From the NCBI RefSeq assembly GCF_040907265.1, contig NZ_JBFOHP010000002.1:8060001-8124000 (forward strand): a DNA stretch of 64,000 bases, written 5' to 3'. Positions 38,141 through 62,269 of the stretch are shown piece by piece (position 1 is the first letter of the stretch; each line of letters starts with the position of its first letter). The translations under genes were made by a program, and so were the position numbers. Under the pieces are notes generated by a model. The model saw only the letters and a list, made by a program, of their open reading frames with translations, ran no database searches and had not been told where the DNA came from. Source of the DNA: Streptomyces sclerotialus. Lineage in GTDB: Bacteria > Actinomycetota > Actinomycetes > Streptomycetales > Streptomycetaceae.

Positions 38141-38160
38141 TGATTTCTGTTGGGAAAGCA
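38141..38160. promoter_or_regulatory. Cluster operator copy 1 (amine oxidase / marR)
   Basis: TGATTTCTGTTGGGAAAGCA, 18 of 20 bases identical to the copy before NRPS1 when that one is read on the minus strand. Arms TGATTTC and GAAAGCA are separated by six bases. It touches the -10 box of the amine oxidase promoter. Confidence 0.7.
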
Positions 38161-38188
38161 CATTGCATCCACGGCGTAATTCCGTCAA
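38160..38188 (-). promoter_or_regulatory. Promoter TTGACG-17-CAATGT for the amine oxidase
   Basis: On the minus strand TTGACG (38188-38183) is followed after 17 bases by CAATGT (38165-38160), whose last base is the first of the 20-bp dyad. The NRPS1 promoter has the same order and nearly the same distance from -35 to dyad (23 against 22 bases). Confidence 0.55.
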
Positions 38189-38362
38189 GATCTGGCCCGT
38201 GTAGCGAGGGCGCAAGGCGAGGTGGCCGGAAGACGCATGGTCTCTCCCCGGCAAGGTGGTTTCCTGCGGGACGTCGTCTCGCGTTCAACTAACCAGTAAA
38301 TCGTGATACGTTTACCCCGATTCACCGTTTCCGTGTTATCGAGCAGATCAGAGGTGAGGCGA

Positions 38363-38845
38363 ATGACGACCAGTGGCGAGTCGTCCGTCCAGCGGCCCGG
38401 TCTGCGGGCGGAGATCGAGGACACCCTGGCCTACCTGACGTGTTCGCTGGTCGCCCGCAGGACGCGTGCCACGCCCGAACGCGTGACATGGCAGCAGTAC
38501 GACGTGCTGGAACTCCTGCGACTCCGCGGGCCGATGACGCCCTCGGTGTTGAGTGAGTCCCTCGGAGTCTCCCGGCAGACCATGTCCAAAGCGCTGCGCA
38601 TTCTCAAGGACCAGGAACTGGTGGAGCAGTCAGCTCAGAGCGAGGACAAACGCGAGCAGACCACCTCGATCACGCTTTGTGGCCACCAGTTTCTGGCCCG
38701 CGCCGCCCGAGGGCGACGGGAGAACGCCAGGGTCGTCGAAGATGTCCTGTCGGCGGCGGAGCAGGCCGCTTTCGTCGAACTGTGCGGCAAGGTGGCGAAT
38801 GCCCTGAACGCCGCGCCTCCGCCGTTTCCGCTGCGCGATCTGTGA
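38363..38845 (+). CDS. MarR family transcriptional regulator
   Basis: A 160-aa MarR protein. The ATG at 38363 follows GAGGTGAGG; an upstream in-frame ATG lacks a site. It has the dimer helix AEIEDTLAYLTCSLVARRTRATPERV, the winged helix WQQYDVLELLRLRGPMTPSVLSESLGVSRQTMSKALRILKDQELV with wing SEDKREQTTSITLCG, and the C-terminal helix pair. It is divergent from the amine oxidase gene and is the most likely reader of the 20-bp dyad seen four times in the cluster, possibly released by the PBD or a precursor. That link is inferred from position and dyad size. Confidence 0.9.
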   Translation: MTTSGESSVQRPGLRAEIEDTLAYLTCSLVARRTRATPERVTWQQYDVLELLRLRGPMTPSVLSESLGVSRQTMSKALRILKDQELVEQSAQSEDKREQTTSITLCGHQFLARAARGRRENARVVEDVLSAAEQAAFVELCGKVANALNAAPPPFPLRDL

Positions 38846-38887
38846 GCCGGCGGCCGGCCGCCGAGCCGTCCCGCACCTGCCGCGCCG

Positions 38888-38937
38888 AGGCGGTGTGCGC
38901 GCAGCCCGGCGCGGAGCCGGCGAACACACCGCCTTTC
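38888..38937. terminator. Stem-loop between convergent marR and monooxygenase genes
   Basis: Perfect 10-bp arms AGGCGGTGTG (38888-38897) and CACACCGCCT (38925-38934), with an inner GC stem and TTCTCC after it. A second short palindrome, CGGCGGCCGGCCGCCG, lies near 38850. Confidence 0.55.
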
Positions 38938-38960
38938 TCCGGACGTGCCGGCGGCGTCTC

Positions 38961-40136
38961 CTACCAGCTCCAGCCCCGTTCCGCGGGCGGCGTCCAGACG
39001 TCGGCCTTCTCCAGGTAGGGGAAGACCTGACCGATCAGTTCGATGTCCTCCGCCGCGTACAGCGACGGCAGGAACATGAAGCCGCGGATGCCGGTCTGCC
39101 GGTGCATGTCGAGGATCTGTTCCGCCACCGTTGACGGTGAGCCCACCAGCACCTTGCTGCCGCAGGCGATGCCCAGGGTGCGAGCGATGTCGTCGAATTC
39201 CCCTCCGTAGTTCGCCTTGTAGGTCTCGCTGCCGCCCATCAGCTCGGTGGCGATGTCGCGGGCGCAGTCCATGTCGAGGGAGTCGCGCACCCAGTCGTAC
39301 TTCTCCTGCGCCTCGCGGTCGGACCTGCCCAGGATGATGCCCGTGGCTCCGGCCATGTTGACTTCCAGGGGGGACCGGCCGTGCCGCTCGGTACGTTCCG
39401 CCAGGCCCTCCACCATGGCCCGCATCTTGGCGTAGTCGTCCGGCAGCGGAGTGAAGGCGAAGTCGCAGGTGTCGGCGATGAGTTCCTGCGCCACCGGTGA
39501 GACGCCCGCGTTGAACAGGCATGGCGGGTCCTGCAGCGGATGCGGACTGATCATCTTGCCGCTGAACCGGAAGTACTCGCCCTCGAAGTCGACCTGCCCG
39601 CCGCGTGCGGCCCACAGCTGCTTGACCGCCTCCACCGCCTCGGCCGTGGTGGCGTAGCGGGTCTCGTGGCTGGCGTCGGGGACGGTGATGCCCAGCAGCG
39701 ACAGCTCGTCGGGTTTCCAGCCGGGGACGATGTTCCAGCCCCAGCGGCCTCCGCTGAGCACATCGAGGTTGGCGCCCATACGCGCGATGACCGCCGGGGG
39801 GAAGTAGCGCGTGTGGAAGGTGGTGACCACGCCGATGTGCCGGGTGGCGGCCATGACGACCGGTGCGAAGACGGGCGCCGACATGTGGGGCTCGGCGTGG
39901 CCGATGCGCCAGCTGTTCTCGCCGTGGGGTATGTAGCCGTCCGCGAAGAAGACGTAGTCGAAACCGGCGTCCTCCACCCGGCGGGCCAGGTCCATCTGGG
40001 CGTCGACGTCGAACGGGTCGGGGTTGCGGTCCGCCACCTCCTTGGAGGTGGTGGTGGGCGTGGGAGAGCTGAGCCACATCAGTCCGAACCGCATCCGGTC
40101 ATCGGCCAGACGCGGCTTGAGCGTGCCTCGGGGCAT
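38961..40136 (-). CDS. LLM-class flavin-dependent monooxygenase
   Basis: A 391-aa luciferase-like (bacterial bioluminescence family) oxidoreductase, of the FMNH2-dependent monooxygenase (SsuD/NtaA/RutA-like) type judging from FGLMWLSSPTPTTTSKEVADRNPDPFDV, GYIPHGENSWRIGHAEPHM, TTFHTRYFPPAVIARMGANLDVLSGGRWGWNIVPGW and LFNAGVSPVAQELIADTCDFAFTPL. It is not the cluster's F420 reductase (that is at 45377). Start at 40136; another ATG 42 bases inside is possible. It lies between marR and the uvrA-like gene; no dyad precedes it. The step may be a late oxidation or detoxification of the PBD; membership in the cluster is probable but not proven. Confidence 0.8.
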   Translation of the reverse strand: MPRGTLKPRLADDRMRFGLMWLSSPTPTTTSKEVADRNPDPFDVDAQMDLARRVEDAGFDYVFFADGYIPHGENSWRIGHAEPHMSAPVFAPVVMAATRHIGVVTTFHTRYFPPAVIARMGANLDVLSGGRWGWNIVPGWKPDELSLLGITVPDASHETRYATTAEAVEAVKQLWAARGGQVDFEGEYFRFSGKMISPHPLQDPPCLFNAGVSPVAQELIADTCDFAFTPLPDDYAKMRAMVEGLAERTERHGRSPLEVNMAGATGIILGRSDREAQEKYDWVRDSLDMDCARDIATELMGGSETYKANYGGEFDDIARTLGIACGSKVLVGSPSTVAEQILDMHRQTGIRGFMFLPSLYAAEDIELIGQVFPYLEKADVWTPPAERGWSW

Positions 40137-40224
40137 TCTCGTGGGTGTCCTTTCGAATCGTGCACCGGTGTGGGTATGAGCCGGTGCGGCGCATGAGCGG
40201 ATGCCGAGCGCGAGGTGGCTCCCG

Positions 40225-40258
40225 GGCCGCTGCCGGCATGCGTACGCCGGCAGCGGCC
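40225..40258 (-). terminator. Terminator hairpin after the uvrA-like gene
   Basis: A perfect 13-bp stem (40225-40237, GGCCGCTGCCGGC; 40246-40258) with an 8-base loop, 8 bases past the stop of the minus-strand uvrA-like gene. Confidence 0.65.
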
Positions 40259-40265
40259 CATCCGG

Positions 40266-42557
40266 TCACCTGCCGGCTCGGCTGAGGTCCTTCTTCAGGT
40301 AGGCAGCGGTGAGGGAGTCCGCTGCGTCGAGGAGCCGGCGCGGGGTGCCCTCGAAGACAAGGCGGCCGCCGTCGCGTCCCGCGCCGGGTCCGATGTCGAT
40401 GATCCAGTCCGCGCGTTTGACGACGTCGAGGTCGTGCTCGACCACGACGACCGTGTTGCCCTTGTCGACGAGGGTGTCGATGAGGTCGATCAGCCGGTCC
40501 ACGTCGGCCATGTGCAGACCGGTGGTGGGCTCGTCGAAGACGAACAGCCCTGAGGTCTCCCTGAGCCGGTCGGCGAGTTTGATGCGCTGGCGTTCACCGC
40601 CGGACAGCGTGGACAGCGGCTGTCCGAGGGTGAGGTAGGGAAGGCCGACGTCGCTGAGGGTCGCAAGCCGGCGGACCACGGGCTTCTCGGTGAAGAAGTC
40701 CAGCGCCTCCTCGACGGTCAGGGCGAGGGTCTCCACGATGTTCTTGCCGTTGAAGCGCAGGTCCAACACCTCGTCACGGTAGCGGCGTCCCTCGCACCGC
40801 TCGCAGACGGTGGTCACCGGCTCCATGTAGGCCAGGTCGTTCTGGATCTCGCCCCGGCCCTGGCAGGCCGGGCAGGCCCCGTCGGAGTTGAAGCTGAACA
40901 TGCCCGGTTCGGTGTGCGTGGCCTTGGCGAAGAGCTTCCGCACGGTGTCCATGATGTTGACGTAGGTGGCGGGCGTCGAGCGGGAGGAGGAACCGATCGC
41001 CTCCTGGTCGATCACGATGGCATCGGGGAACTGCGGGACCAGCGCGCCGTGGACGAAGGAACTCTTGCCCGATCCGGCGACGCCCGTCACCACGGTCAGG
41101 ACGCCTTCGGGGATGTCCACCGACAGGTCCTGGAGGTTGTGCAGGCTTGTTCGCCTCGTGGCGAGTGTGCCGCGCGGCGTGCGGACGCGTTCCTTGAGCC
41201 CGGTCTCGCGGCTCAGCCAGCGTCCGGTCATGGTGTCGGCCTTGCTCAGCTGGGCCGCGGTGCCTTCGAAGACCACCTCGCCGCCGTGGGTGCCGGCGCC
41301 CGGCCCCATGTCCACCACGTGGTCGGCGATGCCGATCACGTCGCGGGAGTGCTCCACGACCAGCACGGTGTTGCCTTTGTCCCGGAGCGCGAGAAGCAGT
41401 TCGTTCAGCCGGTGCACGTCGCGTGGGTGGAGCCCGACGCTGGGCTCGTCGAAGATGTACGTCAGGTCGGTGAGGCTGCTGCCCAGGTGGCGGACGATTT
41501 TCAGCCGCTGGCCCTCACCACCGGACAGTGTGGAGGTCTCGCGGGCGAGGCTCAGGTAGCCGAGGCCCACCGACTCGATACGCCGCAGCACGGACAGCGC
41601 GGCGTCCACCACGGGCTTGGCGGCCGGGACGTCGATGCTCTCCAGCTCCGGGATGAGGTCGGCGATCTCCATCGCGGCGTAGTCGGCGATGTTCTTCCCG
41701 TTGATCTTCGATGCGCGTGCCGCTTCGTTGAGACGGGCGCCTCCACACGCCTCGCAGGCTCCGGCCGCGACGACCGCTTCGACCGCCTGCCGCTCCTTGT
41801 CCTTGAGCCTTTCCAGGCCGCCTTTGAGATAACGGCGGTTGAAGCGGACGACGATTCCCTCGTACTCGTTGGAGTAGGTGAGTTTGCGTCCCTGGCGTTC
41901 GACCTTGAATCCCTCGCCGTACAGCAGGAGCTCTCGGTCCTGCTGGCTGAATTCCCGCAACGGTTTGTCCGGGTCGAACAGTCCCGACTGCGCGTACAGC
42001 TGCCACTGGAAGCCGCCCACCGCGAACAGCGGCGAGCGGATCGCCCCCTCGTTGAGCGACAGGTCTTCGTCCAGCAGCCGGCCGAGGTCGAGCCGGGCGA
42101 CCCGGCCCAGGCCCTCGCACTCCGGGCACATACCGTGCGGGTCATTGAACGAATAGGCGCTGGACTCTCCGGCCGAGGGCTTGCCGTGGCGGGAGAAGAG
42201 CACCCGCAGTGCCGGGTTGACCTCGGTCATCGTGCCGACCGTGGACCGCGAGTTGCCGCCCACCGGACGCTGGTCCACCACGATCGCGGTGGACAGATTC
42301 TTGATGACGGCCGCATCCGGGCGCTCGTACTTCGGCAGGCGGTTGCGGATGAACCAGCTGTAGGTCTCGTTGAGCTGGCGCTGGGACTCCACCGCGACGG
42401 TACCGAAGACGATGGAGGACTTCCCGGAGCCGGACACCCCGGTGAAGACGGTCAGCTCTCCTTTGGGAATGGTGAGCGACACGTTCTTGAGATTGTTCTG
42501 CCGGGCACCTTGGAGAATGATGCAGTCTTCGGTGTGCCGCTTCCGCTGGCCCGCCAT
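40266..42557 (-). CDS. UvrA-like drug self-resistance protein (DrrC type)
   Basis: A 763-aa UvrA paralogue, shorter than repair UvrA (~950 aa) and the length of DrrC from the daunorubicin cluster. Two ABC halves have Walker A FTGVSGSGKSS and VTGVAGSGKSS, signatures STLSGGEGQRLKIV and STLSGGERQRIKLA, and Walker B YIFDEPSVGLHPRDV and FVFDEPTTGLHMADV. Zinc-finger Cys pairs occur as MCPECEG, CEACGG, CPACQG and CERCEG. UvrA-like proteins occur in clusters for DNA-binding or DNA-alkylating antibiotics, and PBDs alkylate guanine N2, so recognition and clearing of PBD-DNA adducts is the expected role. A perfect copy of the cluster dyad lies 51 bases upstream of its start. Confidence 0.9.
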   Translation of the reverse strand: MAGQRKRHTEDCIILQGARQNNLKNVSLTIPKGELTVFTGVSGSGKSSIVFGTVAVESQRQLNETYSWFIRNRLPKYERPDAAVIKNLSTAIVVDQRPVGGNSRSTVGTMTEVNPALRVLFSRHGKPSAGESSAYSFNDPHGMCPECEGLGRVARLDLGRLLDEDLSLNEGAIRSPLFAVGGFQWQLYAQSGLFDPDKPLREFSQQDRELLLYGEGFKVERQGRKLTYSNEYEGIVVRFNRRYLKGGLERLKDKERQAVEAVVAAGACEACGGARLNEAARASKINGKNIADYAAMEIADLIPELESIDVPAAKPVVDAALSVLRRIESVGLGYLSLARETSTLSGGEGQRLKIVRHLGSSLTDLTYIFDEPSVGLHPRDVHRLNELLLALRDKGNTVLVVEHSRDVIGIADHVVDMGPGAGTHGGEVVFEGTAAQLSKADTMTGRWLSRETGLKERVRTPRGTLATRRTSLHNLQDLSVDIPEGVLTVVTGVAGSGKSSFVHGALVPQFPDAIVIDQEAIGSSSRSTPATYVNIMDTVRKLFAKATHTEPGMFSFNSDGACPACQGRGEIQNDLAYMEPVTTVCERCEGRRYRDEVLDLRFNGKNIVETLALTVEEALDFFTEKPVVRRLATLSDVGLPYLTLGQPLSTLSGGERQRIKLADRLRETSGLFVFDEPTTGLHMADVDRLIDLIDTLVDKGNTVVVVEHDLDVVKRADWIIDIGPGAGRDGGRLVFEGTPRRLLDAADSLTAAYLKKDLSRAGR

Positions 42558-42607
42558 GAAATCGTCCTCCTGCCGAGAGCGGTCGTCCGCCCGACCGCGA
42601 ACCCCTA

Positions 42608-42627
42608 TGGTTTCTTTTTGGAAACCA
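42608..42627. promoter_or_regulatory. Cluster operator copy 2 (uvrA-like gene)
   Basis: TGGTTTCTTTTTGGAAACCA: perfect 7-bp arms with a 6-base spacer, 17 of 20 bases shared with the NRPS1 copy. It lies between the gamma-glutamyltransferase stop and the uvrA-like start, and TTAACT on the minus strand just upstream is a plausible -10 box. Confidence 0.75.
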
Positions 42628-42644
42628 AGTTAACATCCGCTGGT

Positions 42645-44435
42645 TCAGCGAGCTACCGCGTACGCCTGTTCGCCACGCGGACTCGCGGCACCGAAGACCA
42701 GCCCGTCGGCCGCCCGTCCGGTTGCGCAGACCTTGCCCAGCGACCGCGCCGGGGCGATCCGCACGACGTGGCCGCGCCAGCGCAGCTCTTCCACGACGCG
42801 CTCGGGGCAGCCGTGCTCCACCACCACGCTGCCCGGAGTGGCGACGTGCGGGGTGAAGGAGGAGGGCACCGCGTCGGTGTGGAACGCCGGCGCCTCCACC
42901 GCCTCCTGTACGCCCGAGCCGAAGTCCACGTGCTGCAGGAAGAAGTTCAGCGTCCACTGGTCCTGCTGGTCGCCACCGGGCGTGCCGAACGCCATGTACG
43001 GTTCACCGTCGCGCAGCACCAGGGTGGGGGAGAGAGTGGTGCGTGGGCGCTTGCCGGGAGCGACGGCGTTGGGGTGGCCGGGGACCAGGTTCGCCATCTG
43101 CCCCCGGGTGCCCAGCGGAAAGCCCAGCCCCGGCACTACGGGGGAGCTCTTGAGCCAGCCGCCGCTGGGCGTGGCGACCACCATGTTGCCCTCGCTGTCG
43201 GTCGCGCTGACGCAGCAGGTGTCGCCCTTGGCCTGGGTCAACTGGACGATTGCGGGAATGCCGTCGCCCAACTGCCGCAGCCACTCAGGGCCGTCGGCCA
43301 CGGCGGGGCCCGACACCGGCGGCATGACCGGTATCCGGCCGCCGGGCGAGCCGGGCCGCAGCTCCAGCGACGCCCGTTCCTCGACCAGCGCACGGCGCGC
43401 GGCCGCGTACTCGGCACTCAGCAGGATGTCCACCGGTACGTCCGTGTGGTCCGGGTCGCCGTACCACGCCTCCCGGTCGGCGAACGCCAGCTTCGCGCAC
43501 TCCACCACGGTGTGCAGGTGGTCGGCGCTCCCCGGCTCCGTGCGGGAGAGGTCGAAGCCCTCCAGCAGGGCGAGTTGTTGGAGGAAGACAGGACCCTGAG
43601 ACCACGGGCCGCTCTTGTGGACCGTGTGGCCGCGGTACTCGCCGACCAGGGGGGCTTCGACCGTCGCCCGCCACGATGCCATGTCGTCACCGGTGAGCAG
43701 GCCGGCGTGGCGCTGCCCGGTGGCGTCGAGCATCGGGGTGCCGGTGACGAACTTGTCGATCGCCTCGGCCACGAAGCCCTCGTAGAAGGCGGTCTCGGCG
43801 GCCTCGATCTGCCGTTCACGGCCACCGCCTGCCGCCTGGGACTCCTCGGCCAGCAGCCGGAAGGTACGGGCCAGTTCGGGGTTGGTCGTCCGCGCTCCGG
43901 CGGCGGGAGGCTTCCCGCCTCGCAGGTAGGTACGGCCGGACTCGGTCCACTCCTCGCGGAACAGCGGCGCCAGCACGTCGATCATCTGCGCGGCCTTCGG
44001 CAGGATCGGGAAACCCTTCTCGGCGTACCCGATGGCCGGGGCCAGCACCTGCGCCGGTGTCAGCCGTCCGTGGTCCCGCAGCAGCCGCATCCACGCCCCG
44101 AAGGCGCCGGGCACGCAGGCAGCCAGGAGCCCGGAGCCCGGTATCGCCGCCAGCCCCTGGTCGCGGAACGCCTCGATGGTGGCGGCCCGGGGCATCGGTC
44201 CCTGCCCGCAGATCACGTCCACACGGGCGGTGCGGGCATCGTAGGCCAGGATCGGCACGTCCCCGGCCGGGCCGTTGAGATGGGGCTCGACCACCTGGGT
44301 GACGAAGGCAGCGGCGACGGCCGCGTCGAAGGCATTCCCTCCCTGCGACAGCATGTCCATACCGGCCGCGGCGGCGAGCCAGTGGGTGGCGGCGACGGCT
44401 CCGCGGGCACCCTTGAGTTCGGGTCGGCTGAGCAT
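42645..44435 (-). CDS. Gamma-glutamyltransferase homologue for 4-alkylproline biosynthesis (LmbA-like)
   Basis: A 596-aa Ntn-hydrolase of the gamma-glutamyltranspeptidase family. The autoprocessing/nucleophile Thr is likely in AKGDTCCVSATDSEGN; other family pieces are MLSQGGNAFDAAVAAAF, HLNGPAGDVPILAYD, PGAFGAWMRLLRDHGRL, RTTLSPTLVLRDGEPYMAFGTPGGDQQ. No signal peptide, unlike exported GGTs. In lincomycin, hormaomycin and PBD clusters the homologue (LmbA and relatives) cleaves a C-C bond in the ring-opened L-DOPA product on the way to 4-alkyl-L-proline. Its neighbours are the other four genes of that pathway, which fixes the role well. Confidence 0.9.
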   Translation of the reverse strand: MLSRPELKGARGAVAATHWLAAAAGMDMLSQGGNAFDAAVAAAFVTQVVEPHLNGPAGDVPILAYDARTARVDVICGQGPMPRAATIEAFRDQGLAAIPGSGLLAACVPGAFGAWMRLLRDHGRLTPAQVLAPAIGYAEKGFPILPKAAQMIDVLAPLFREEWTESGRTYLRGGKPPAAGARTTNPELARTFRLLAEESQAAGGGRERQIEAAETAFYEGFVAEAIDKFVTGTPMLDATGQRHAGLLTGDDMASWRATVEAPLVGEYRGHTVHKSGPWSQGPVFLQQLALLEGFDLSRTEPGSADHLHTVVECAKLAFADREAWYGDPDHTDVPVDILLSAEYAAARRALVEERASLELRPGSPGGRIPVMPPVSGPAVADGPEWLRQLGDGIPAIVQLTQAKGDTCCVSATDSEGNMVVATPSGGWLKSSPVVPGLGFPLGTRGQMANLVPGHPNAVAPGKRPRTTLSPTLVLRDGEPYMAFGTPGGDQQDQWTLNFFLQHVDFGSGVQEAVEAPAFHTDAVPSSFTPHVATPGSVVVEHGCPERVVEELRWRGHVVRIAPARSLGKVCATGRAADGLVFGAASPRGEQAYAVAR

Positions 44436-44484
44436 GAGGTTCCTTTCCTCGGGTCGGCGTGCGGACGGTACGTCCGTGCCTCGG

Positions 44485-45384
44485 TCAGTGGGAGGAGGCC
44501 GCGTCGGCGGCAGGGTTCCGGCCGGCGGACGGGACGGTGCCTTGTGCGAGGGGAACGACCTGGCCGGAGACGGTGGCCGTCGGATCGTCGTCGTCGTACG
44601 TGGTGAGCGTGCACGTCAGCAGGGCCTGGCGCGCCGTCCCTACGCCCTGCCGCACCTGGAACTCGTGCGTCGCCGGCTCCGCCGGAAGCAGCCCGTTGTG
44701 CAGCAGCCACAGGCCCAGCGCGAGCGCGGCGGAGGAGCAGGCCGGGTCCTCGGGGATGCCGTACCCGGGTGCGAACATGCGGGCGTCCGCCTGTCGTCGG
44801 CGGGCGTCCCAGTGCAGGAGGAAGACGTCCTTCAGCCCGGCGCCGAGCAGCGCCTCCGGGTGGGGGGAGGCCTCGTGCAGCGCCTCGGGGCGGACGGGCA
44901 GGAAGTGGAAGCGGGGGCCGAATCCCGCCCGGCCCGCACGGCCCGGCCCCTCGTCGGCCAGCGCGGAGCGGGGCAGTCCGGCGGCGGCCAGCAGGGGGGC
45001 GGGGGCGACGGCCGCGCTCTCCAGCGGGTTCCCGGCGGCGATGGTGCCGTGGTGGTCGTCCACCGTGAGGGACAGCAGCTTCTCCCCGCACTGCTGCACC
45101 ACGGGGCCGGACGCGAGGAGGCCGAGGCGGACCAGCGTCACCGCGGTGCCCAGGCTCGGATGCCCCCCGAAGGGGGACTCCGCCTGCGGAGTGAACACGC
45201 GGATGCGGTAGTCGGCCGAGGGGTGGGTGGCGGGCAGCACGAACACCGTTTCCGGCGTGCCGGTCCGTGCCGCCAGCGACTGCATCCGGTGATCGGTCAG
45301 CCCGGTCGCCTCCGGTACGACGGCCAGGAGCCCGCCGGAGGAGGGGCCGTCGGCGAACATACTCACGATCTCGACGTCAGGCAC
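44485..45384 (-). CDS. PhzF-family isomerase for 4-alkylproline biosynthesis (LmbX-like)
   Basis: A 299-aa PhzF-fold protein. The GTG at 45384 follows GGGAGG and overlaps the reductase stop by 8 bp. The catalytic Glu lies in FTPQAESPFGGHPSLGTAVTLV, the family's active-site motif, and the second half has FAPGYGIPEDPACSSAALALGLWLL. In 4-alkylproline pathways the PhzF-like enzyme (LmbX) isomerises a double bond before F420-dependent reduction. True phenazine genes are not present, although the PhzE/PhzD-like genes further right could mislead. Confidence 0.9.
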   Translation of the reverse strand: MPDVEIVSMFADGPSSGGLLAVVPEATGLTDHRMQSLAARTGTPETVFVLPATHPSADYRIRVFTPQAESPFGGHPSLGTAVTLVRLGLLASGPVVQQCGEKLLSLTVDDHHGTIAAGNPLESAAVAPAPLLAAAGLPRSALADEGPGRAGRAGFGPRFHFLPVRPEALHEASPHPEALLGAGLKDVFLLHWDARRRQADARMFAPGYGIPEDPACSSAALALGLWLLHNGLLPAEPATHEFQVRQGVGTARQALLTCTLTTYDDDDPTATVSGQVVPLAQGTVPSAGRNPAADAASSH

Positions 45385-46318
45385 GCGGCCCTCCCAGGGG
45401 CAGGGAACGTCCGCCGGCAGGCGTGTCGCGGCCCGGCAGCAGGACGGTCCGGGCGATCTCCTCCAGTACCTCCGGCCTTCCCTCGTACGGGAACGACGGG
45501 CGAGGCCAGTGCACCACCATGTCGGTGAAACCCAGTTCCTCGAAGGTTCCGGTGGCGTCCCGGAACGCCTCGACGGAGTCCAGCACGCCACCGACCGCCG
45601 CTCCCGTGACCAGCAGCCGGCGGGCAGTGGCGGGATCGCGGCCGGTCGCGGCGCACGCCTTCTCCCACCCGTCGACCTGCTTTTCGAGTGCGGGAAGCAT
45701 GCGGTCGTAGCGCGTCGCCTCGAAGCGTCCGGGCGGTCCAGCGGTGATCCAGGTGTCGGCGAAGCGGGCCGCGAGCCGCATCGCACGCGGGCCGGTGGCG
45801 GCCACCGCCAGTGGCATCCGGGGCTGCCGCACGCAGCCCGGCCGCATGTGCACGGCCTCGGCGGTGTAGTGGTGGCCGTGATAGGTGGTCTCCGGCTGCC
45901 GGAGCAGCAGGTCAATCAGCTCCACGAACTCCGCGAAGCGGCCGGCTCGCTCGCCCGGCGTCAACGACGGTCCGCCCAGCGCCGGTTCGTCGTAGCCGCC
46001 GGCCCCTGCCCCCGTACCGCAGATGACCCGGCCCCCGGACACGTCGTCCAGCGCCATCAGTTCCTTGGCCAGCGTCACCGGGTGGCGGAACGCGGGGGTG
46101 GCGACCAGGGTGCCCAGCATGATGCGCGAGGTGACCGTGGCGGCGGCGGTCAGTGTCGGCACGCAGCCGAACCAGGTCTCCTCGCGCAGCCACCGCCACA
46201 TCAGATGGTCGTAGGTCCAGGCGTGGTCAAAGCCGTACTCCTCCGCCAGACGCCACTTCGGGGCGGCGTCCCGCCACCGGTTCTCGGGCAGGATGACGAT
46301 TCCGTGACGCATCGTCAC
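45377..46318 (-). CDS. F420-dependent reductase for 4-alkylproline biosynthesis (LmbY-like)
   Basis: A 313-aa luciferase-like F420-dependent oxidoreductase. It begins MRHGIVILPENRWRDAAPKWRLAEEYGFDHAWTYDHLMWR; the GTG at 46318 overlaps the preceding stop, and an ATG six bases on is equally possible. GTLVATPAFRHPVTLAKELMALDDVSGGRVICGTGAGAGGYDE is the cofactor-side motif. LmbY-type enzymes reduce the pyrroline ring or side-chain double bonds of the alkylproline intermediate; PBD versions leave more unsaturation, giving exocyclic alkenes at C2. The gene sits inside the tightly coupled five-gene pathway operon. Confidence 0.9.
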   Translation of the reverse strand: MTMRHGIVILPENRWRDAAPKWRLAEEYGFDHAWTYDHLMWRWLREETWFGCVPTLTAAATVTSRIMLGTLVATPAFRHPVTLAKELMALDDVSGGRVICGTGAGAGGYDEPALGGPSLTPGERAGRFAEFVELIDLLLRQPETTYHGHHYTAEAVHMRPGCVRQPRMPLAVAATGPRAMRLAARFADTWITAGPPGRFEATRYDRMLPALEKQVDGWEKACAATGRDPATARRLLVTGAAVGGVLDSVEAFRDATGTFEELGFTDMVVHWPRPSFPYEGRPEVLEEIARTVLLPGRDTPAGGRSLPLGGPRA

Positions 46319-47259
46319 CGGTCCGAGGCCAGCGCCGGGGAACCCGTCGCCTCCTCGGCCACCTCGGAGAGGATGGCCAAGAAGTCACGTTCGTGACCGG
46401 TGACTTCGGGGCGGGTCAGCTCTTCGGGCAACTCGGACCCCGCCTCCCGGCCGTCCGGGTACAGAGCATTGTCCTTGACGTCCAGGGCAATGGCGGTCAG
46501 GCGGCGCAGCAGTTGAGCCACCACGTCGCGGGAGGAGGGGCGCGAGCGCAGCGTCAGGAAGTAGTTGTCGTAGACGACGCCCAGGACATCCGGGTGCTGC
46601 ACTCCGCTGGGCACCGAGGCTTCCTGGAGCAGGGAGCGGCCGCTGGGCACCATGCGCGCGGCGATGCCGGCGTGGATGACCTGGTAGACGTGGACGGCCT
46701 GCGCCAGGTCCGCGGAGTCGCGCACGCACGGCAGCTTCTTGCCGCGGAACAGGGCCTGGACCGGCTTGTGGTCCGGCGCCCAGGTGCCGCTGAATCCGGG
46801 GTGCTGGAGGAACATGCTGGGCCGGATGACATCACCGTAGACGGTGCGGGGCATCGAGCCGGTGTAGAGCAGCATCGCACAGTAGCCCCGGACGTACCGC
46901 GTCATGGCCTTCAGCGCGGCGTCCCTTTCCGGTCCCTCCTCGGGCAGGCGCGCCAGTTCGCGGGAGAGCAGCTGCCACAGGATGAACGTCACCTGGTGGC
47001 CGGTGATCCAGCGGAACCAGTAGAGACGGTCCGAGGAATCGGCGGGCTGGACGCGTTCCGCCGGCCCGCCGCCCGCGGCGATGGCGGCGATGTGGCGGCA
47101 GGTGAGTGTGAACTCGGCCGGTACCGAGCCGGAGTCCGCTGCCTCCAGGCTGCCGGGCTCCGGCAGGGTCAGGGGCTCCAGTCCATAGGGGAAGTCCCCG
47201 AAGTCCCAGCGCCCGTGGTCCGGCAGTTCGGTGAGGACGGTGCCGGTTCCGGTGTTCAT
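46315..47259 (-). CDS. Heme-dependent L-tyrosine 3-hydroxylase (LmbB2-like)
   Basis: A 314-aa protein of the LmbB2/SibU/Orf13 family of histidine-ligated heme tyrosine hydroxylases that make L-DOPA with H2O2. The ATG at 47259 overlaps the dioxygenase stop (ATGA). Family-like stretches are WFRWITGHQVTFILWQLLSREL, MTRYVRGYCAMLLYTGSMPRTVYGDVIRPSMFLQHPGFSGTWAPD and VHVYQVIHAGIAARMVPSGRSLLQEASV; one of the His in these is presumably the heme ligand, but I cannot say which. Position with an L-DOPA dioxygenase supports the role. Confidence 0.88.
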   Translation of the reverse strand: MNTGTGTVLTELPDHGRWDFGDFPYGLEPLTLPEPGSLEAADSGSVPAEFTLTCRHIAAIAAGGGPAERVQPADSSDRLYWFRWITGHQVTFILWQLLSRELARLPEEGPERDAALKAMTRYVRGYCAMLLYTGSMPRTVYGDVIRPSMFLQHPGFSGTWAPDHKPVQALFRGKKLPCVRDSADLAQAVHVYQVIHAGIAARMVPSGRSLLQEASVPSGVQHPDVLGVVYDNYFLTLRSRPSSRDVVAQLLRRLTAIALDVKDNALYPDGREAGSELPEELTRPEVTGHERDFLAILSEVAEEATGSPALASDR

Positions 47260-47759
47260 TCCACACCCTCCGGAAGGTAGGTGAACTCGTACTCCAGGCC
47301 GTTGACGTCCAGCACGTAGAGGCTCAGCACGCCGTCCTCGTCCACCACGATGTCGGTCGGCCCCTCGTCGCGCACGAACGTGTAGCGGCCGGACTCGTAC
47401 AGCTCCAGCCAGCGGTCGCGCCACTCCGTCATCTCCTCCGGAGACCTCGTGGCCAGGCACAGGTGCTGGAACTGCGGCACCTCGGCCACAGGGGCGGGCG
47501 TGGCGTCGGCGGCGCGCTCGAAGACATGGATGCGCAGGTCGCCCGCGGCCAGTTCGACGAGGCGGGTGATGCCGGGAAGGCGGCTGCGTGTGAGGTCGGA
47601 GAACTTCTCCAGCGACCAGTTCTGCTCGCAGCCGAAGAACTCCCGGTACCAGCCCAGCGAGTTCTCCAGGTCGGAGGTCTGCACGCCGATGTGGTGGAAC
47701 CGGAAGGCGTGCTCGGGCGATGCGCCGGGCGACGCCTCGCGCGTGATGGTGTTCCGCAC
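47256..47759 (-). CDS. L-DOPA 2,3-dioxygenase (LmbB1-like, VOC fold)
   Basis: A 167-aa vicinal-oxygen-chelate protein that extradiol-cleaves L-DOPA in alkylproline biosynthesis. Metal ligands are likely His in FRFHHIGVQTSDLENSLGWY, His in VPQFQHLCLATRSPEEM and Glu in VLDVNGLEYEFTY. GTG start at 47759 after GAGAGGA. It is the first gene of the minus-strand 4-alkylproline operon (dioxygenase, hydroxylase, F420 reductase, PhzF-like, GGT-like) and is divergent from the O-methyltransferase gene, with a copy of the cluster dyad between them. Confidence 0.88.
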   Translation of the reverse strand: MRNTITREASPGASPEHAFRFHHIGVQTSDLENSLGWYREFFGCEQNWSLEKFSDLTRSRLPGITRLVELAAGDLRIHVFERAADATPAPVAEVPQFQHLCLATRSPEEMTEWRDRWLELYESGRYTFVRDEGPTDIVVDEDGVLSLYVLDVNGLEYEFTYLPEGVE

Positions 47760-47865
47760 TTTCGTCCTCTCGTTCGTCGGATCGCAGGGAAGAATTCACC
47801 TGCCGGGATTCGCTTGCCGAGGAAACGCTCTTGCGAGGGGGTGGAAGGCTACGGGGAGACTACGG

Positions 47866-47885
47866 TGATTTCCATTCGTTAATCA
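47866..47885. promoter_or_regulatory. Cluster operator copy 3 (dioxygenase / O-methyltransferase gap)
   Basis: TGATTTCCATTCGTTAATCA, 15 of 20 bases identical to the NRPS1 copy; outer arms TGATT and AATCA are perfect. It lies near the middle of the 212-base divergent gap and could serve both directions. It is the weakest of the four copies. Confidence 0.5.
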
Positions 47886-47971
47886 AGGGGGTTCAAGCGT
47901 CCATATTGCATCCGTACGGCACCGTCCGGTAGACCATTTGACCACCGGAGCTGATCGAAGAGAGGGCTGCG

Positions 47972-48637
47972 ATGGAAGAGCAGTGGACCGCCATCGACAT
48001 CTACGCGAGTGACCTTTTGGTGCCACAGGACGAGGCGCTGCGCGACGCCGCCGGGGCCAGCCGTGAGGCCGGGCTTCCGGAAATCGCTGTCTCACCCGCG
48101 CAGGGCAAATTCCTGCATCTGCTGGCGCGTACCGGCAAGGCGGCGAAGATCCTGGAGATCGGGACCTTCGGCGGCTACAGCACCATCTGGCTGGCGCGGG
48201 CGCTGCCGCCGGACGGGCTGCTGGTGACCTGCGAACGCGAGGAGGACTTCGCCAAGAAGGCGTGGGCCCGCATCCAGGCCGCCGGGGTGGCCGACCGCGT
48301 CGACCTGAGGACCGGCAAGGCTCTGGACACCCTGCCTGCCCTGGAGGCCGAGGGGCTCGGCCCGTTCGACATGGTCTTCATCGACGCCGACAAGGCCGGC
48401 GTTCCGGACTACTTCGCCTGGTCACTGCGGTTGTCCCGGCCGGGCACCGTGATCATCGTGGACAACGTCGTCCTGGAGGGCGCGGTGACCGACGCCGCCA
48501 GTGCGAACCCGGCCGTGCAGGGAGTGCGGCGGTTCCACGAGATGGTCGCCGCTGAGCCGCGGGTCAGCGCGACGACCCTGCAGACGGTGGGCGTACGTGG
48601 GCACGACGGGTTCACCTACGTGCTCGTCACGGGCTGA
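47972..48637 (+). CDS. Catechol-type O-methyltransferase
   Basis: A 221-aa class I SAM methyltransferase of the metal-dependent caffeoyl-CoA/catechol OMT family. Start at 47972 after GAGAGG. SAM motif ILEIGTFGGYSTIWLARALP, metal-site Asp in FDMVFIDADKAGVPDYF, and VIIVDNVVLEG are clear. With an HpaB-type hydroxylase and a 3-hydroxyanthranilate pathway beside it, it should methylate one hydroxyl of a dihydroxyanthranilate, giving the methoxy group of the PBD A-ring, like TomG of tomaymycin. It is the only biosynthetic gene on the plus strand. Confidence 0.9.
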   Translation: MEEQWTAIDIYASDLLVPQDEALRDAAGASREAGLPEIAVSPAQGKFLHLLARTGKAAKILEIGTFGGYSTIWLARALPPDGLLVTCEREEDFAKKAWARIQAAGVADRVDLRTGKALDTLPALEAEGLGPFDMVFIDADKAGVPDYFAWSLRLSRPGTVIIVDNVVLEGAVTDAASANPAVQGVRRFHEMVAAEPRVSATTLQTVGVRGHDGFTYVLVTG

Positions 48638-48648
48638 ACCAGCACACC

Positions 48649-48696
48649 GCCGGAGGCGGTGCGGGTACCGCAACCGGTACCCGCACCGCCTCCGGC
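48649..48696. terminator. Bidirectional terminator with a perfect 22-bp stem
   Basis: Arms 48649-48670 and 48675-48696 are fully complementary around a CAAC loop. It fills the gap between the convergent O-methyltransferase and HpaB-type genes, 12 bases after one stop and 18 from the other. Confidence 0.85.
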
Positions 48697-48713
48697 TTGC
48701 TCGCCCCGGCCAC

Positions 48714-50276: not shown

Positions 50277-50297
50277 GTCTGCCTTTCCATGGTCTGT

Positions 50298-55530: not shown

Positions 55531-55586
55531 GACGGGCCTTTGTCGTAGGGGATGAGCCGGGCGCGGGGGCGGCGCGAGCACGTCGC

Positions 55587-58500: not shown

Positions 58501-60233
58501 TCCAGTGCCGTCGCATCCGGCGTACGGGCCACCTGGGCCTCGAAGAGTTCGGTCACCGTCCGGTCGGCCCGTGTCTCGGCGGTGCGGTCGCACCAGCCCA
58601 GCAGCTGCCGGCGGTCGGCCTCGTCGAGCAGCCCGATCCCGCCGATCGCGGCACCGGGGCGCTCCACCAGCGCGTCGAGGACGTGCAGGAAGTGACGGCT
58701 CATCGCACGCACGGTGTCCCGGTCGAACAACGCGGTGTCGAATTCGAAGATGCCCTGCAGGGTCGCGCCGTCCTGCTCCACGACCAGCGTCAGGTCGTAC
58801 TTGGCGCTGTGACTCACGTACAGGTCCAGGTCGACGTCGAGCCCGAGCCGCTCGAGGGAACCGGTACCGGAACTCGGCATGACGAACGTCGTCTGGAACA
58901 GCGGGGAGTAGCTCTGGCTGCGCTGTGGGTCCGCCCGCTCCACCACCTTGTCGAACGGCGCGTCCCGGTGCGCGAGTGCCCCGGTGACCTCCCGCGCGAC
59001 CTGCCGGAACAGCTCACTGCCGGTCATGCCGTCGGCCAGCCGGTGCCGGGTGGGCACCATGTTGACGTAGTAGCCGATGGCGTGCCGGGTCTCGTCGGTG
59101 TCGCGCAGCGAGACCGGCGTGCCGATGCAGATGTCCTCCTGCCGCGTGTATGCGTGCAGGAAGACGCAGTACGCGCTCATCAGCAGCATGAACGGTGTGA
59201 CGCCCTCCTCCGCCGCCCGGGCCTGGAGCCGCCGGCACAGCTGTGGGGGGATGCCGAACCGCAGCACCTCGCCGTCGTGGGAGGCGACGGCCGGCCGCGG
59301 CCGGTCCAGCGGCAGGTCCAGCAGGGGCAGCGGACCACGCAGCCGTTCCTCCCAGTAGGAGAGGTGGTCCTCCAGCACGGCCGGGGTGAGCGTCGCCTGC
59401 TGCCGGCGGACGAATTCCCGGTACTGTGCGGGCTCCGGAGTGGGGCCGGGCGCTGCACCGGTTGCCGCCTCCTGGTAGGCACTGAGCCAGTCGGTGAGGA
59501 AGACGCCCGCCGAGGCCGCGTCGAAGACGATGTGGTGGACGTTGCACACTACATGGGTGGTCCCGTCGTGATGGCGTACGCAGCAGACCCGCAGCAGGGG
59601 CCCTTGCGTCAGGTCGAACCGGGTCCGTGCGACCTCGCGGACCAGTTCCCGCAACCGCTCCTCGTCCCGGCTCTCCCGTACCGAGAAGTCGAACCGGGCG
59701 GTGTCCGCGATGTGTTGGCGCACAGCACCGTCCTCGACGGCGAAGGTCGTACGCAGGGCCTCGTGCCGCGACACCACCGTGCGCAGGCTCTGCCGCAGGA
59801 GCTCGGTGTCCACCGGGCCGTTGAACCGCACCACGAAGGGCGCGTTGTACGCCGCGGGGTTGGCGGAGAACTGGTCGAGGAACCAGATGCCCGCCTGACC
59901 GTGCGAGGCAGGGAGCGAGCCCTCCGGCCCGTACGCCACGTCCGGTGTCGCGGCCGTGTCCCCGTCGGCACCGTTCGCCACCTCGGTGGTGTCTGCCTCG
60001 TGTGCCGCGCGCTCCCGCTCGATGAGCGCCGCGACCCCCCGCACGTCGCCGTGGCGCAACACCTCGTGCGGCGTCACGTCGAGGGCGAACACCGCCCTCA
60101 GCGTCTCCGCGAACCGGACGATCTCGGGCGAGGCGGAGGAGTGCCCGGTGAAGGGGGCGGCCACCGTGCTGTCGGCATCGCCCGTGACGTCCTGCCAGAT
60201 CCGCAGGACCACACCCTCCAGGATGGTGTCCAT
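55587..60233 (-). CDS. PBD NRPS subunit 2: (degenerate T)-C-A-T-reductase
   Basis: A 1548-aa NRPS; ATG at 60233 after GGAAGG. Residues 1-80 resemble a carrier domain, but the core motif reads GHSSASPEIV. C domain ~105-530, active site HHIVFDA at 233-239 (final Gly is Ala). A domain ~555-1070: YTSGSTGLPKG near 708, LSFDVSLMEI near 749 keeps the Asp that binds an alpha-amino/imino group, fitting a 4-alkylproline substrate. T domain with FALGGHSIL near 1100. Terminal reductase ~1185-1548: LLTGATGFLGGYLL and catalytic GYTQSKWVAERL. It condenses the anthranilyl unit with the alkylproline and releases the aldehyde that cyclises to the PBD imine/carbinolamine. Confidence 0.94.
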   Translation of the reverse strand: MDTILEGVVLRIWQDVTGDADSTVAAPFTGHSSASPEIVRFAETLRAVFALDVTPHEVLRHGDVRGVAALIERERAAHEADTTEVANGADGDTAATPDVAYGPEGSLPASHGQAGIWFLDQFSANPAAYNAPFVVRFNGPVDTELLRQSLRTVVSRHEALRTTFAVEDGAVRQHIADTARFDFSVRESRDEERLRELVREVARTRFDLTQGPLLRVCCVRHHDGTTHVVCNVHHIVFDAASAGVFLTDWLSAYQEAATGAAPGPTPEPAQYREFVRRQQATLTPAVLEDHLSYWEERLRGPLPLLDLPLDRPRPAVASHDGEVLRFGIPPQLCRRLQARAAEEGVTPFMLLMSAYCVFLHAYTRQEDICIGTPVSLRDTDETRHAIGYYVNMVPTRHRLADGMTGSELFRQVAREVTGALAHRDAPFDKVVERADPQRSQSYSPLFQTTFVMPSSGTGSLERLGLDVDLDLYVSHSAKYDLTLVVEQDGATLQGIFEFDTALFDRDTVRAMSRHFLHVLDALVERPGAAIGGIGLLDEADRRQLLGWCDRTAETRADRTVTELFEAQVARTPDATALECGGTSLTYRQLNARANRTARALIARGARPGQRVALHLDRSVDQIAGLLGVLKTGASYVPLDPHYPADRVTFMLHDADVRLVVTDDDAPHLPAEADRFVMGRDVPSGPERPEDDQDLGRRKGTDDEIYVIYTSGSTGLPKGVVINDGTIANLVAAQTALSPCGAWTRTLQYMSLSFDVSLMEILGTLCAGGTLVLIPEELRTDLDRLADFIARERIGRMYLPYIAVHQLAAVTARSDRVLDGLVEVASVGEQLTVTPQIREFFTRHPRARLLNMYGPSETHLATSHTLSRQPADWPDAPPIGAGIPGLKLLCLDQRMNLVPEGVPGELYIGGDVISPGYHNRPEETEARYLPDPFDPSGRGRLYRTGDLVRVTRNREFEYLGRTDGQIKIRGYRIEPAEVESALTALPSVTASAVAPIAYGPGDTRLVGFVVTEEPLDVATVRRGLGGRLPDYMLPSALVRLDRIPKTPSGKIDRKALPSLFVTDEPSSTRREPATEREREIARVWADVLKTGQVGADDDFFALGGHSILATALIYRLRQAYGVDVPMRTLFEDPTVSGMAARIDRLLNGDDDAGPALSVPDLLSDAILPGHIGASATAGAHDTIATSGPREVLLTGATGFLGGYLLRELLTATPCRVHCLVRATDEHAAWQRLRATATAYGFADTLTPDRVTAVPGDVSRTRFGLADDAYDALAAGVDTVYHAAARINFVAPYASVKPDNVGGVLNVLEFATRGVVKPVHHMSTLAVFSPAGHPGVITEDCVPEEHQALSIGYTQSKWVAERLALTAAERGLPVTVYRIGRIGADSATGACQAEDFLWRQIKSFIQLGRAPEPKNVTSELLPVDFVAKAVVALSRDHTATGGVRHLFHPDGVPFEVIHTAIRDSGYPLLDVAAGEWVRALEDAALTTGDNALAAAVPLLREGALELGENVYDNAHTTALLQRAGLCYPEISAGYFRAMISYFQVTGELSS

Positions 60234-60327
60234 CAAGTCGCGCCTTCCAGGTGTCTGAGTGAAGCGGGAATGCGGCGGGGCAGCGCTCGGCCGGCCGGGG
60301 CAACCGGGCGACCGGGCGTGCGCTCGG

Positions 60328-62139
60328 TCAGTGAGGCAGGCCGGAGGCGCGCTTCTCCTCGATGTAAGCGGCGAGCTTGCGCACGTCCCCGTGCCGGAAG
60401 ATCTCCTCGGCGCTCACCTTGACGGCGAGCACCTTCTCCAGGGTCGAGGCGAGTTGCACGAAGTGCAGTGAGTTGCCGCCGTGGCCGAGGAAGGGGTCAT
60501 CCGCCGCCACCTCCGAGTCACCGATGATGTCCCGCCAGACCTGCAGGACCACGCCTTCCAACGGGTTCGCCATGGGGTTCGCACGCTTCCTTTCCTTGAC
60601 GTCGTCCGGCTCGCTGAGCGCGGAACGGTCGGTTTTTCCGTTCACGGTGGTCGGCATCCGGTCGAGGTGGTGGTACGCCGACGGGACCATGTAGTCCGGC
60701 AGTTCGGCCATGAGCGCCGTGGTCAGCGTGACGGCGTCCAGGGCCTTGCCGGTGCGGGTGGTGTAGAAGGCGACGAGGCGCGCCTCGCCGTCGTCGTCGC
60801 GGAACGGCTTGACCACGGCCTGGTCGATCGCGTCGACCGTCCTGAGCGCCAGTTCCACCGCACCGGTCTCCACCCGGTAACCGCGCACCTTGACCTGGCC
60901 GTCGCCCCGGCCGGTCACGACGATGTCGCCCTCGGGCGTCGTACGGGCGCGGTCCCCGGTCCGGTACAGCCTCGCCCCGGTGTCCGGGGAGGTGAGGAAC
61001 CTGCCCTCGCCGAGCGCGGCGTCCACGTACCCCAGGGCGAGTCCCGCACCGGAGATGACCAGTTCACCGGGCTCACCGGGCGCGCAGGGTGCCAGCCGTT
61101 CGTCCACCACCGCCATCTCCACGAGAGGCAGGGGCTTGCCCACGGGCACCGGTCCGGTGTCGCTGAGGGCTTCGGGGTCCACCGGGAACAGCGCCGAAAT
61201 GGCGGAGTTCTCCGTGCAGCCGTAACCGTTGAAGATCTTCGCGGACGTGTCGCGGGCGGCGCGCCGCAGGTGGCGCGGTGACGGGAAGTCACCGCTGACG
61301 AATACCGCCCGCAATTTCGCCAGCGCCTCCAGCTCGTTGTCGACCAGCAGGTTGAACAGTCCGCCCGGCAGGCTCAGCACCGTGACGCCGTGCTCCTCGA
61401 CGGCCTGCCGGACGCCGCTGAGGGAGGGCAGGCCGGGCGGCAGGACAGCGAGCTTCGCGCCGTTGAGGAACGTCAGCCAGACCTCGTTCATCGAGGCGGC
61501 GAAGGAAGGTGCGGCCTGTTGCAGCAGGCAGTCCTCCTCGGTGAGGGAGAGGCCCGGCACCGGGAGGGCGAGACGCGTAAGTCCCCGGTGCGCGAGGCGC
61601 GTGCCCTTCGGCCTGCCGGTGGAACCGGAGGTGTACAGCACGAAGGCGGTGTCCTCCGGGTCCGCTACGGGTTCAGGGTTGTGTGCGGCCAACTGCGCGG
61701 CGCACCGCAGTAGTTCGTCGTCGGTGACAGCGTCCACGCCGGGCCAACGGGACGGGTCGGGTGCCCGGTCGCCGGCTGCCGGACCCTGGTGGACAACCAG
61801 GCGGACGCGGGCCTCGGTGACGATGTGGTCGATCATCTGGCGCGGATGCGAGGGGTTGAGCGGCACGACGTGGCCGCCCGCCTTGAGGACCGCGAGCATG
61901 GCCACGTACAGCCCGGCCGACCGGTCGAGATGCAGGCCGACGGCCGCACCCGGTGCCACGCCGCGGCGCGCCAGTTCGCGGGCGGCTTGGTTCGCCAGGG
62001 AGTTCAGGCGCGCGTACGTCAGCGAGTCACCCTTCGGCGGTCCCTCGGCGAGCGCGGTACGGTCACCGTGTCGTGAGACGATTCGCTCGAACAGCGTGGG
62101 CAGCGATTCGAGCGGTTCCAGCGCTTCATCTGCGGACAT
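60328..62139 (-). CDS. PBD NRPS subunit 1: anthranilate-activating A-T
   Basis: A 603-aa stand-alone A-T protein; ATG at 62139 after GGAGGG. A-domain motifs FVLYTSGSTGRPKGT (~171), IFNGYGCTENSA, LYRTGDRA and GDGQVKVRGYRVE are intact. The A4 motif reads FAASMNEVW, where amino-acid-activating domains have FDxS: the Asp-to-Ala change fits an aryl acid with no alpha-amine, so the substrate is a substituted anthranilate. The C-terminal carrier has LGHGGNSLHFVQL (~555). Its last 75 residues are clearly similar to the first 80 of NRPS 2. It is the first gene of the long operon down to 48714, and its promoter carries the cluster dyad. Confidence 0.93.
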   Translation of the reverse strand: MSADEALEPLESLPTLFERIVSRHGDRTALAEGPPKGDSLTYARLNSLANQAARELARRGVAPGAAVGLHLDRSAGLYVAMLAVLKAGGHVVPLNPSHPRQMIDHIVTEARVRLVVHQGPAAGDRAPDPSRWPGVDAVTDDELLRCAAQLAAHNPEPVADPEDTAFVLYTSGSTGRPKGTRLAHRGLTRLALPVPGLSLTEEDCLLQQAAPSFAASMNEVWLTFLNGAKLAVLPPGLPSLSGVRQAVEEHGVTVLSLPGGLFNLLVDNELEALAKLRAVFVSGDFPSPRHLRRAARDTSAKIFNGYGCTENSAISALFPVDPEALSDTGPVPVGKPLPLVEMAVVDERLAPCAPGEPGELVISGAGLALGYVDAALGEGRFLTSPDTGARLYRTGDRARTTPEGDIVVTGRGDGQVKVRGYRVETGAVELALRTVDAIDQAVVKPFRDDDGEARLVAFYTTRTGKALDAVTLTTALMAELPDYMVPSAYHHLDRMPTTVNGKTDRSALSEPDDVKERKRANPMANPLEGVVLQVWRDIIGDSEVAADDPFLGHGGNSLHFVQLASTLEKVLAVKVSAEEIFRHGDVRKLAAYIEEKRASGLPH

Positions 62140-62249
62140 GCAAGACGCCCTCCATTGACCCGTACGAGGAACGGCGAGCGTGGTCCCCCGTTGGTGTAAG
62201 AAGCGGAAAAAGTGCCCGTGCCTCGGCGGAGGCGCCCTGGCAAGCGGGA

Positions 62250-62269
62250 TGGTTTCCGAACAGAAATCA
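62250..62269. promoter_or_regulatory. Cluster operator copy 4 (NRPS operon)
   Basis: Read on the minus strand TGATTTCTGTTCGGAAACCA; arms TGATTTC and GAAACCA with a 6-base spacer. It begins at the last base of the -10 box, so a bound protein would block transcription of the NRPS/precursor operon. Confidence 0.75.

Follow-up and report, generated by a model that had tools for sequence, protein, structure and literature searches.

Four dyads in a limazepine-type pyrrolobenzodiazepine cluster of Streptomyces sclerotialus as predicted operators of the cluster's own MarR-family regulator

Pyrrolobenzodiazepines (PBDs) are described in the titles of published papers as DNA-alkylating compounds and as payloads of antibody-drug conjugates. 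Among the clusters described so far, that for limazepine in strain ICBB 8177 carries, side by side, genes for the UvrA-like protein Lim15, the luciferase-like monooxygenase (LLM) oxidoreductase Lim16, the MarR protein Lim17 and the amine oxidase Lim18; in the available part of that paper, Lim17 is listed under regulation only, the word "operator" is absent, and no binding site was found (PMC5958127). The tilimycin/tilivalline cluster of Klebsiella oxytoca likewise pairs a PBD with a UvrA-like immunity protein, UvrX, which according to the accessible text shields Escherichia coli from tilimycin damage (PMC9613472), as would be expected if UvrA-like proteins confer immunity to PBDs. A UvrA-family gene, por3, is also reported from the porothramycin PBD cluster in the part of its description available (PMC4194701). 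To decipher how such a cluster may be controlled, we analyzed a 64,000-nucleotide stretch of the 8.28-Mb genome of Streptomyces sclerotialus (contig NZ_JBFOHP010000002.1, G000:C2:8060001-8124000; hereafter, the window). Judged by its gene content (Pfam, NCBIfam and the gene table of PMC5958127, as far as available), the window appears to hold a limazepine-type PBD cluster, in which the UvrA-like, LLM, MarR and amine oxidase genes occur in the same order, together with two nonribosomal peptide synthetase (NRPS) genes. Our comparisons indicate that four 20-bp dyads in this cluster are very probably operators for the MarR-family repressor that the cluster itself encodes, linking synthesis with self-resistance. 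No description of a PBD-cluster operator or of a tested cluster-borne repressor was found in the literature searched, which was chiefly open-access.

An earlier note, made from the letters of the window alone, had reported the four dyads, and a direct check of the sequence reproduced their coordinates and strands, their identities to the site at 62250 (18, 17 and 15 of 20) and their location in gene gaps. Predicted operator 1 (38141..38160, minus strand, TGCTTTCCCAACAGAAATCA) lies upstream of two divergent genes, that for the amine oxidase, whose start at 38056 (minus) is 84 bp away, and marR, whose start at 38363 (plus) is 202 bp away. Predicted operator 2 (42608..42627, minus, TGGTTTCCAAAAAGAAACCA) occupies the gap between the stop of a gamma-GT gene (42645-44435, minus) and the start of the uvrA-like gene (42557, minus), 50 bp upstream of the latter, while predicted operator 3 (47866..47885, plus, TGATTTCC-ATTC-GTTAATCA) is located between a minus-strand frame (46315-47799) and the start of an O-methyltransferase gene (47972, plus), 86 bp before that start. 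Predicted operator 4 (62250..62269, minus, TGATTTCTGTTCGGAAACCA) is found 110 bp upstream of the start of NRPS1 (62139, minus). The proposed targets of operators 1, 2 and 4 are thus the genes for an amine oxidase-like flavoprotein (36542..38056, minus; Lim18/TomQ-type by the table in the available part of PMC5958127), a Lim15-type UvrA-like self-resistance protein (40266..42557, minus) and the adenylation-carrier protein NRPS1 (60328..62139, minus), with the O-methyltransferase gene (47972..48637, plus) as the likely target of operator 3. These gap assignments agree with those of the earlier note except for its "dioxygenase" label on the frame at 46315-47799, for which a Pfam search returned no match. 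The proposed reader of the dyads is a Lim17-type MarR protein of 160 amino acids (38363..38845, plus), which belongs to the winged helix-turn-helix MarR family according to two Pfam models above their curated cut-offs (PF12802, MarR_2, 47.5 bits against 27; PF01047, MarR, 46.1 bits against 24.6). It scored far under the cut-offs of the NCBIfam models of named MarR proteins, and the closest solved structures were remote (best E value, 3.2e-9).

Counts based on the four sites themselves are circular, as when the consensus of sites 1 and 4 gave three window matches with up to three mismatches against 0.01 expected, and the genome pattern drawn from the four sites was likewise not used as evidence. 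For orientation, TGRTTTCYN4RGAAAYCA with up to two mismatches was found at five places in the whole genome, four of which are the cluster dyads, and exactly three mismatches were found at 30 more places, including one in the cluster (38257), giving 35 places in total versus 12 for the reversed pattern. The significance of the sites was instead assessed with an independent, symmetric matrix derived from 36 distinct sites (of 40) upstream of marR homologues, from which the window and both sister clusters were excluded. This matrix ranked the four dyads first to fourth in the window, with 32.8 bits for operator 2, 30.6 bits for operator 4 and 24.7 bits each for operators 1 and 3, followed by 7.2 bits at 38257, while the top score in 300 simulated 64-kb windows was 19.8 bits. 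Outside the cluster, the 28 distinct sequences obtained by the pattern search (not by a full-genome matrix scan) scored at most 20.8 bits. Many equal hits across the genome, which the earlier note had named as a reason to abandon its idea, were not seen in this pattern search and its matrix scores, and the same site occurs at several promoters of the cluster and hardly elsewhere, as in a cluster-situated regulon. Five of the 30 three-mismatch places were copies of one repeated sequence, and the copy that was checked (L075) lies in a 16S rRNA gene and is not a regulatory site. A comparison of stop-to-stop frames was dropped as it does not discriminate in GC-rich DNA: the 13 sites read, out of 30 off-cluster places plus two others, were in frames of 130 to 664 codons, and the four true sites were likewise in frames of 215 to 1006 codons.

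The distribution of the dyad across genomes further connects it with the MarR subfamily. Two samples were used, namely 50 MarR homologues from a protein search and 52 loci from a scan of genome contigs, the latter with identities of 49 to 91% and covering three phyla. Of the 52 loci, 42, from Pseudomonas to Bacillus, carry the dyad TRRTTTCYN4RGAAAYYA (up to two mismatches) in the 500 bp in front of marR. A palindrome close to the gene that encodes the regulator is typical of the MarR family, and its counterpart in the window is operator 1, 202 bp before marR. The upstream zones contained 57 matches (2.13 per kb) versus 41 elsewhere (0.042 per kb), and the reversed pattern gave none in the upstream zones and two elsewhere. 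When perfect 6-bp dyads were counted in 50 upstream regions without the window and its sisters, the overlapping forms TTTCCA-N2-TGGAAA and GTTTCC-N4-GGAAAC ranked top (7 of 50 each), while two control sets were led by unrelated dyads (4 of 48 and 2 of 50). Among 392 genomes of the same genus, 10 carried the marR gene (E value of ≤1e-20) and seven contained the exact pattern, all seven being among the 10 carriers (hypergeometric P of 4.5e-13 if the genomes are treated as independent). Four of the seven exact sites outside the window, in four other genomes, lay about 19 kb from marR in the gamma-GT/uvrA gap, 26 bp ahead of the point where the uvrA homologue starts in the alignment; these are the equivalent of site 2, and this placement was not built into the search. 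We also considered that another regulator, either a global factor or a second MarR protein, binds the dyads and that the cluster MarR has other targets, which would accord with the distance of 202 bp between marR and the nearest good-scoring dyad in the window. A global factor should leave exact sites in genomes lacking this MarR, and the exact pattern was found in none of the 382 MarR-less genomes, by which the global regulator is rejected; together with the dyads in front of homologous marR genes across phyla, this makes another reader very improbable. The cluster MarR, as the earlier note proposed, thus appears to be the likely reader.

A lack of conservation in sister clusters, which the earlier note had also named as a reason to abandon its idea, is contradicted by the clusters compared. 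Syntenic clusters occur in Streptomyces sp. ICBB 8177 (L019), which we take to be the limazepine producer, and in Streptantibioticus parmotrematis (L020), with 82 to 96% protein identity over the correctly framed genes compared (85% and 86%, respectively, for the amine oxidase). All four dyads are retained in these two sisters, operators 1 to 3 in L019 and L020 and operator 4 in L080 and L081. The counterparts of operator 1 are TGATTTCCCTGCGGAAACCA in L019 and TGATTTCCTGATGGAAACCA in L020, where the half-sites are unchanged while all four spacer columns vary, the palindrome being better in both sisters than in the window. Across the four gap alignments of the three clusters, 59 of 64 half-site columns were invariant, compared with 619 of 963 columns outside the dyads (Fisher, 5e-7); in the spacers, 11 of 16 columns were. 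The non-canonical GTTAATCA half of operator 3 is retained in both sister clusters as well. A search for NRPS1 in the genomes that hold eight of the loci gave a close homologue in six, those of L035 and L036 having no close NRPS1; in four more distant clusters (L082 to L085; NRPS1 identity, 53 to 56%), a dyad with one to three mismatches likewise lies upstream of the gene. The L085 homologue, from S. smyrnaeus, contains one in-frame TGA, which may stem from an error in sequencing or mean that the gene has decayed. In L080 (3766-3785) and L081 (3767-3786), an extra dyad, AGATTTCCGGATGGAAACCG, which is absent from the window, was observed some 340 bp farther upstream of NRPS1 than operator 4. A further site in the window (38257..38276, plus, TGGTTTCCTGCGGGACGTCG), 86 bp before marR, might have been counted as another operator of the cluster, but it has three mismatches, its region is only partly conserved in the sisters, with a different half-site spacing, and it was set aside as a weak and doubtful candidate.

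The position of the dyads relative to the putative promoters suggests what a bound protein would do. The proposed amine oxidase promoter (38160..38188, minus) consists of a -35 box TTGACG (38183-38188), a 17-bp spacer and the -10-like hexamer CAATGT (38160-38165), and the proposed NRPS1 promoter (62269..62298, minus) consists of TTGACA (62293-62298), an 18-bp spacer and CATGAT (62269-62274), which confirms the -35-to-dyad distances of 22 and 23 bp given in the earlier note. In front of the uvrA-like gene, we propose an extended -10 element (TGT-TAACTT, 42627..42635, minus) without a TTGAC-like -35 box, and toward the O-methyltransferase gene only a -10-like hexamer (TACGGT, 47861..47866, plus) with no clear -35 box was found. 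All four dyads therefore overlap a candidate core promoter, with a clear -35 box at operators 1 and 4, and at each site the last T of the -10-like hexamer (two of the form CANNNT and two of the form TANNNT) is the first T of the dyad. The TTGAC box of the amine oxidase promoter and the extended -10 element of the uvrA-like gene are retained in L019 and L020, and the NRPS1 promoter is conserved in L080 and L081. Moreover, an exact TTGACA occurred 30 times within 100 bp of 115 distinct dyads, and 23 of these 30 boxes were at a distance of 22 to 24 bp. In the shared-T register, TANNNT was present at 28 of 121 sites versus 0 to 10 at eight registers before the dyad; higher counts (34 and 29) at two registers within the dyad come from the letters of the dyad itself. 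A dyad spanning about -7 to +13 predicts repression through promoter occlusion. The sequence would be compatible with dual action as well, in which the MarR binds the dyads but mainly activates, or does no more than adjust a switch that a different regulator sets; the overlap with the -10/+1 region beside an exact TTGACA is the geometry of occlusion, and we regard this alternative as unlikely. That the four dyads are a chance occurrence or a functionless repeat element is close to impossible, being ruled out by the co-occurrence with MarR, the independent matrix and the dyad count and contradicted also by the TTGACA spacing and the half-site conservation.

From the sites, their conservation, their co-occurrence with MarR genes and the promoter geometry, we infer binding, the direction of control and the inducer as follows. 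A MarR dimer would contact the two half-sites (TGRTTTCC/GGAAAYCA) with one winged helix apiece, and since the operator would span about -7 to +13 and share the last T of the -10 element, the bound repressor would block RNA polymerase. Four promoter regions would be held down in this way, those of NRPS1, of the uvrA-like gene with the LLM gene behind it, of the O-methyltransferase gap and of the amine oxidase, which agrees with the suggestion of the earlier note that one repressor controls synthesis, resistance and an accessory oxidase. On induction, the promoters would be freed and both synthesis and resistance would rise; the inducer would most likely be the PBD itself or an electrophilic compound closely related to it. 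Aromatic acids are frequent ligands of MarR proteins, and a pathway precursor, such as an anthranilate-type or other aromatic acid, is a serious though less favored candidate for the inducer, considering that anthranilate-synthase-like genes are found near many of the actinomycete members. The uvrA-like loci bear on this point. A survey of 23 MarR loci with a uvrA-like gene, from which L044 and L065 were left out for their partial alignments, revealed a dyad within 200 bp of the gene start in nine of 21 loci and, in another 11, all Gram-negative and with 48 to 55% identity, marR directly followed by the uvrA-like gene with the dyad in front of marR; the remaining uvrA-like protein (L053, 39% identity) is likely an ordinary UvrA and has no dyad. 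The uvrA-like resistance gene is, on this comparison, a recurrent predicted target of the operator, including in stand-alone marR-uvrA pairs. In the genomes of 14 non-actinomycetes (the 11 tandem loci plus L041, L044 and L065), no match to NRPS2 at 1e-120 spanned the whole C-A-T-reductase, with the limit that for six of these genomes only part of the first-look candidates received a score and that a divergent synthetase could be missed. Five genomes had no match, and the matches in the other nine stopped near residue 1150 of 1549, except for one in Paenibacillus (486-1541). A PBD precursor of their own is thus not expected in these genomes, which argues against the precursor as the inducer.

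Several observations weigh against this repressor-operator interpretation. The promoter of marR itself has only the site 202 bp upstream and the weak one 86 bp upstream, one half of operator 3 is non-canonical, and TANNNT in the shared register is limited to 28 of 121 sites. No dyad within two mismatches was found upstream of marR in 10 of the 52 loci: L030, L038 and L045 have a three-mismatch dyad 83 to 185 bp upstream, in L044 a one-mismatch dyad follows marR closely and precedes a partial uvrA-like frame, a four-mismatch site is all that L070 has, and the remaining five are Providencia loci with another palindrome. Three of the MarR-bearing genomes of the same genus (G020, G075 and G149) lack the exact pattern, each having a one-mismatch dyad near marR. 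The loci are related, as seen from the 40 training sites reduced to 36 distinct ones, and the counts are not independent; in addition, the window had a part in the choice of the search consensus, and in the least circular check, the dyad count, the best dyad was perfect in only 7 of 50 regions. Some MarR proteins act as activators, and the promoter geometry argues for repression without proving it. Finally, the regulators of the porothramycin cluster in the available text are a two-component system, a DeoR-like protein and an NmrA-like protein, the word "MarR" being absent there, and a gene table without a MarR protein indicates that the MarR switch is not general to PBD clusters (PMC4194701).

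A broader possibility, put forward tentatively, is that marR, the uvrA-like gene and the operator form a portable, inducible immunity module against PBD genotoxins that would also sense the toxin of neighbors. Besides producers, it would be kept by bacteria (Pseudomonas, Achromobacter, Bacillus, Marinobacterium and others) whose genomes yielded no full PBD-type synthetase at 1e-120. PBDs prefer to alkylate sites of the purine-G-A type, and a near-invariant purine-G-A triplet is present in each half-site of the dyad; in the boldest form of this tentative idea, the operator might be part of the sensor, an adduct evicting the repressor. The Morganellaceae branch appears to have switched its operator. 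Dyads of the type TGATTAACN4GTTAATCA were observed upstream of marR in five Providencia loci and one Proteus locus (L047, L049, L052, L057, L067 and L104). The MarR proteins of these loci grouped together (100/99) at the end of a long branch, and the tree tool flagged the attachment of this branch to L061 as possibly false. They have SRQNLSKF in common, in what is presumably the recognition-helix region, where other members vary (SRQTxSKA, SRPTMSKA, ARTGISKS and others). Site 3 of the window (47866-47885) is a natural hybrid in which a canonical half-site is joined to a GTTAATCA half of the kind seen in the Providencia operators. A short-chain dehydrogenase gene lies beside marR in L047 (Providencia, 9113-9877), L061 (10482-11231) and L063 (703-1467), where other loci have the uvrA-like gene; this enzyme is perhaps a second detoxification route, and the partner appears to have been switched to it within the Morganellaceae at least in L047. 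Of the Klebsiella and Proteus records from the plasmid collection, L103 had no dyad and L104 had the TTAAC type; L104 (NZ_OL790811.1), filed as a Proteus mirabilis plasmid, is chromosome-sized at 4.08 Mb and probably mislabelled.

Other genes of the cluster complete the limazepine-type content. The Lim16-type LLM gene (38961..40136, minus), recognized by profile and homologue comparison, lies downstream of the uvrA-like gene, and the cluster further contains genes for gamma-GT, an F420-type LLM reductase, an HpaB-type hydroxylase, an isochorismatase, the C-A-T-reductase NRPS2 and the A-T protein NRPS1. If the proposed regulon is real, deletion of a single gene should turn on synthesis and self-resistance together, and the 20-bp operator would be a ready probe for silent PBD-like clusters. 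Likewise, if the operator before uvrA-like genes in apparent non-producers functions as predicted, the sensing and resisting of the genotoxins of others would become testable.

Compared with described systems, control by a cluster-borne MarR protein has a parallel in CtcS, likewise a MarR regulator of antibiotic synthesis, for chlortetracycline, according to the available part of its description (PMC6905112). The regulators given for tilimycin/tilivalline of K. oxytoca in the literature seen are Crp, Lrp, OmpR, Fis/IHF and SdiA, in contrast to the MarR protein of the cluster in the window; the word "marR" was absent from three texts on tilimycin/tilivalline searched for it, and the 52 MarR loci did not include a K. 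oxytoca record. Thus, the MarR-operator regulon predicted here would be a known kind of system, with an operator that seems to be conserved unexpectedly widely.

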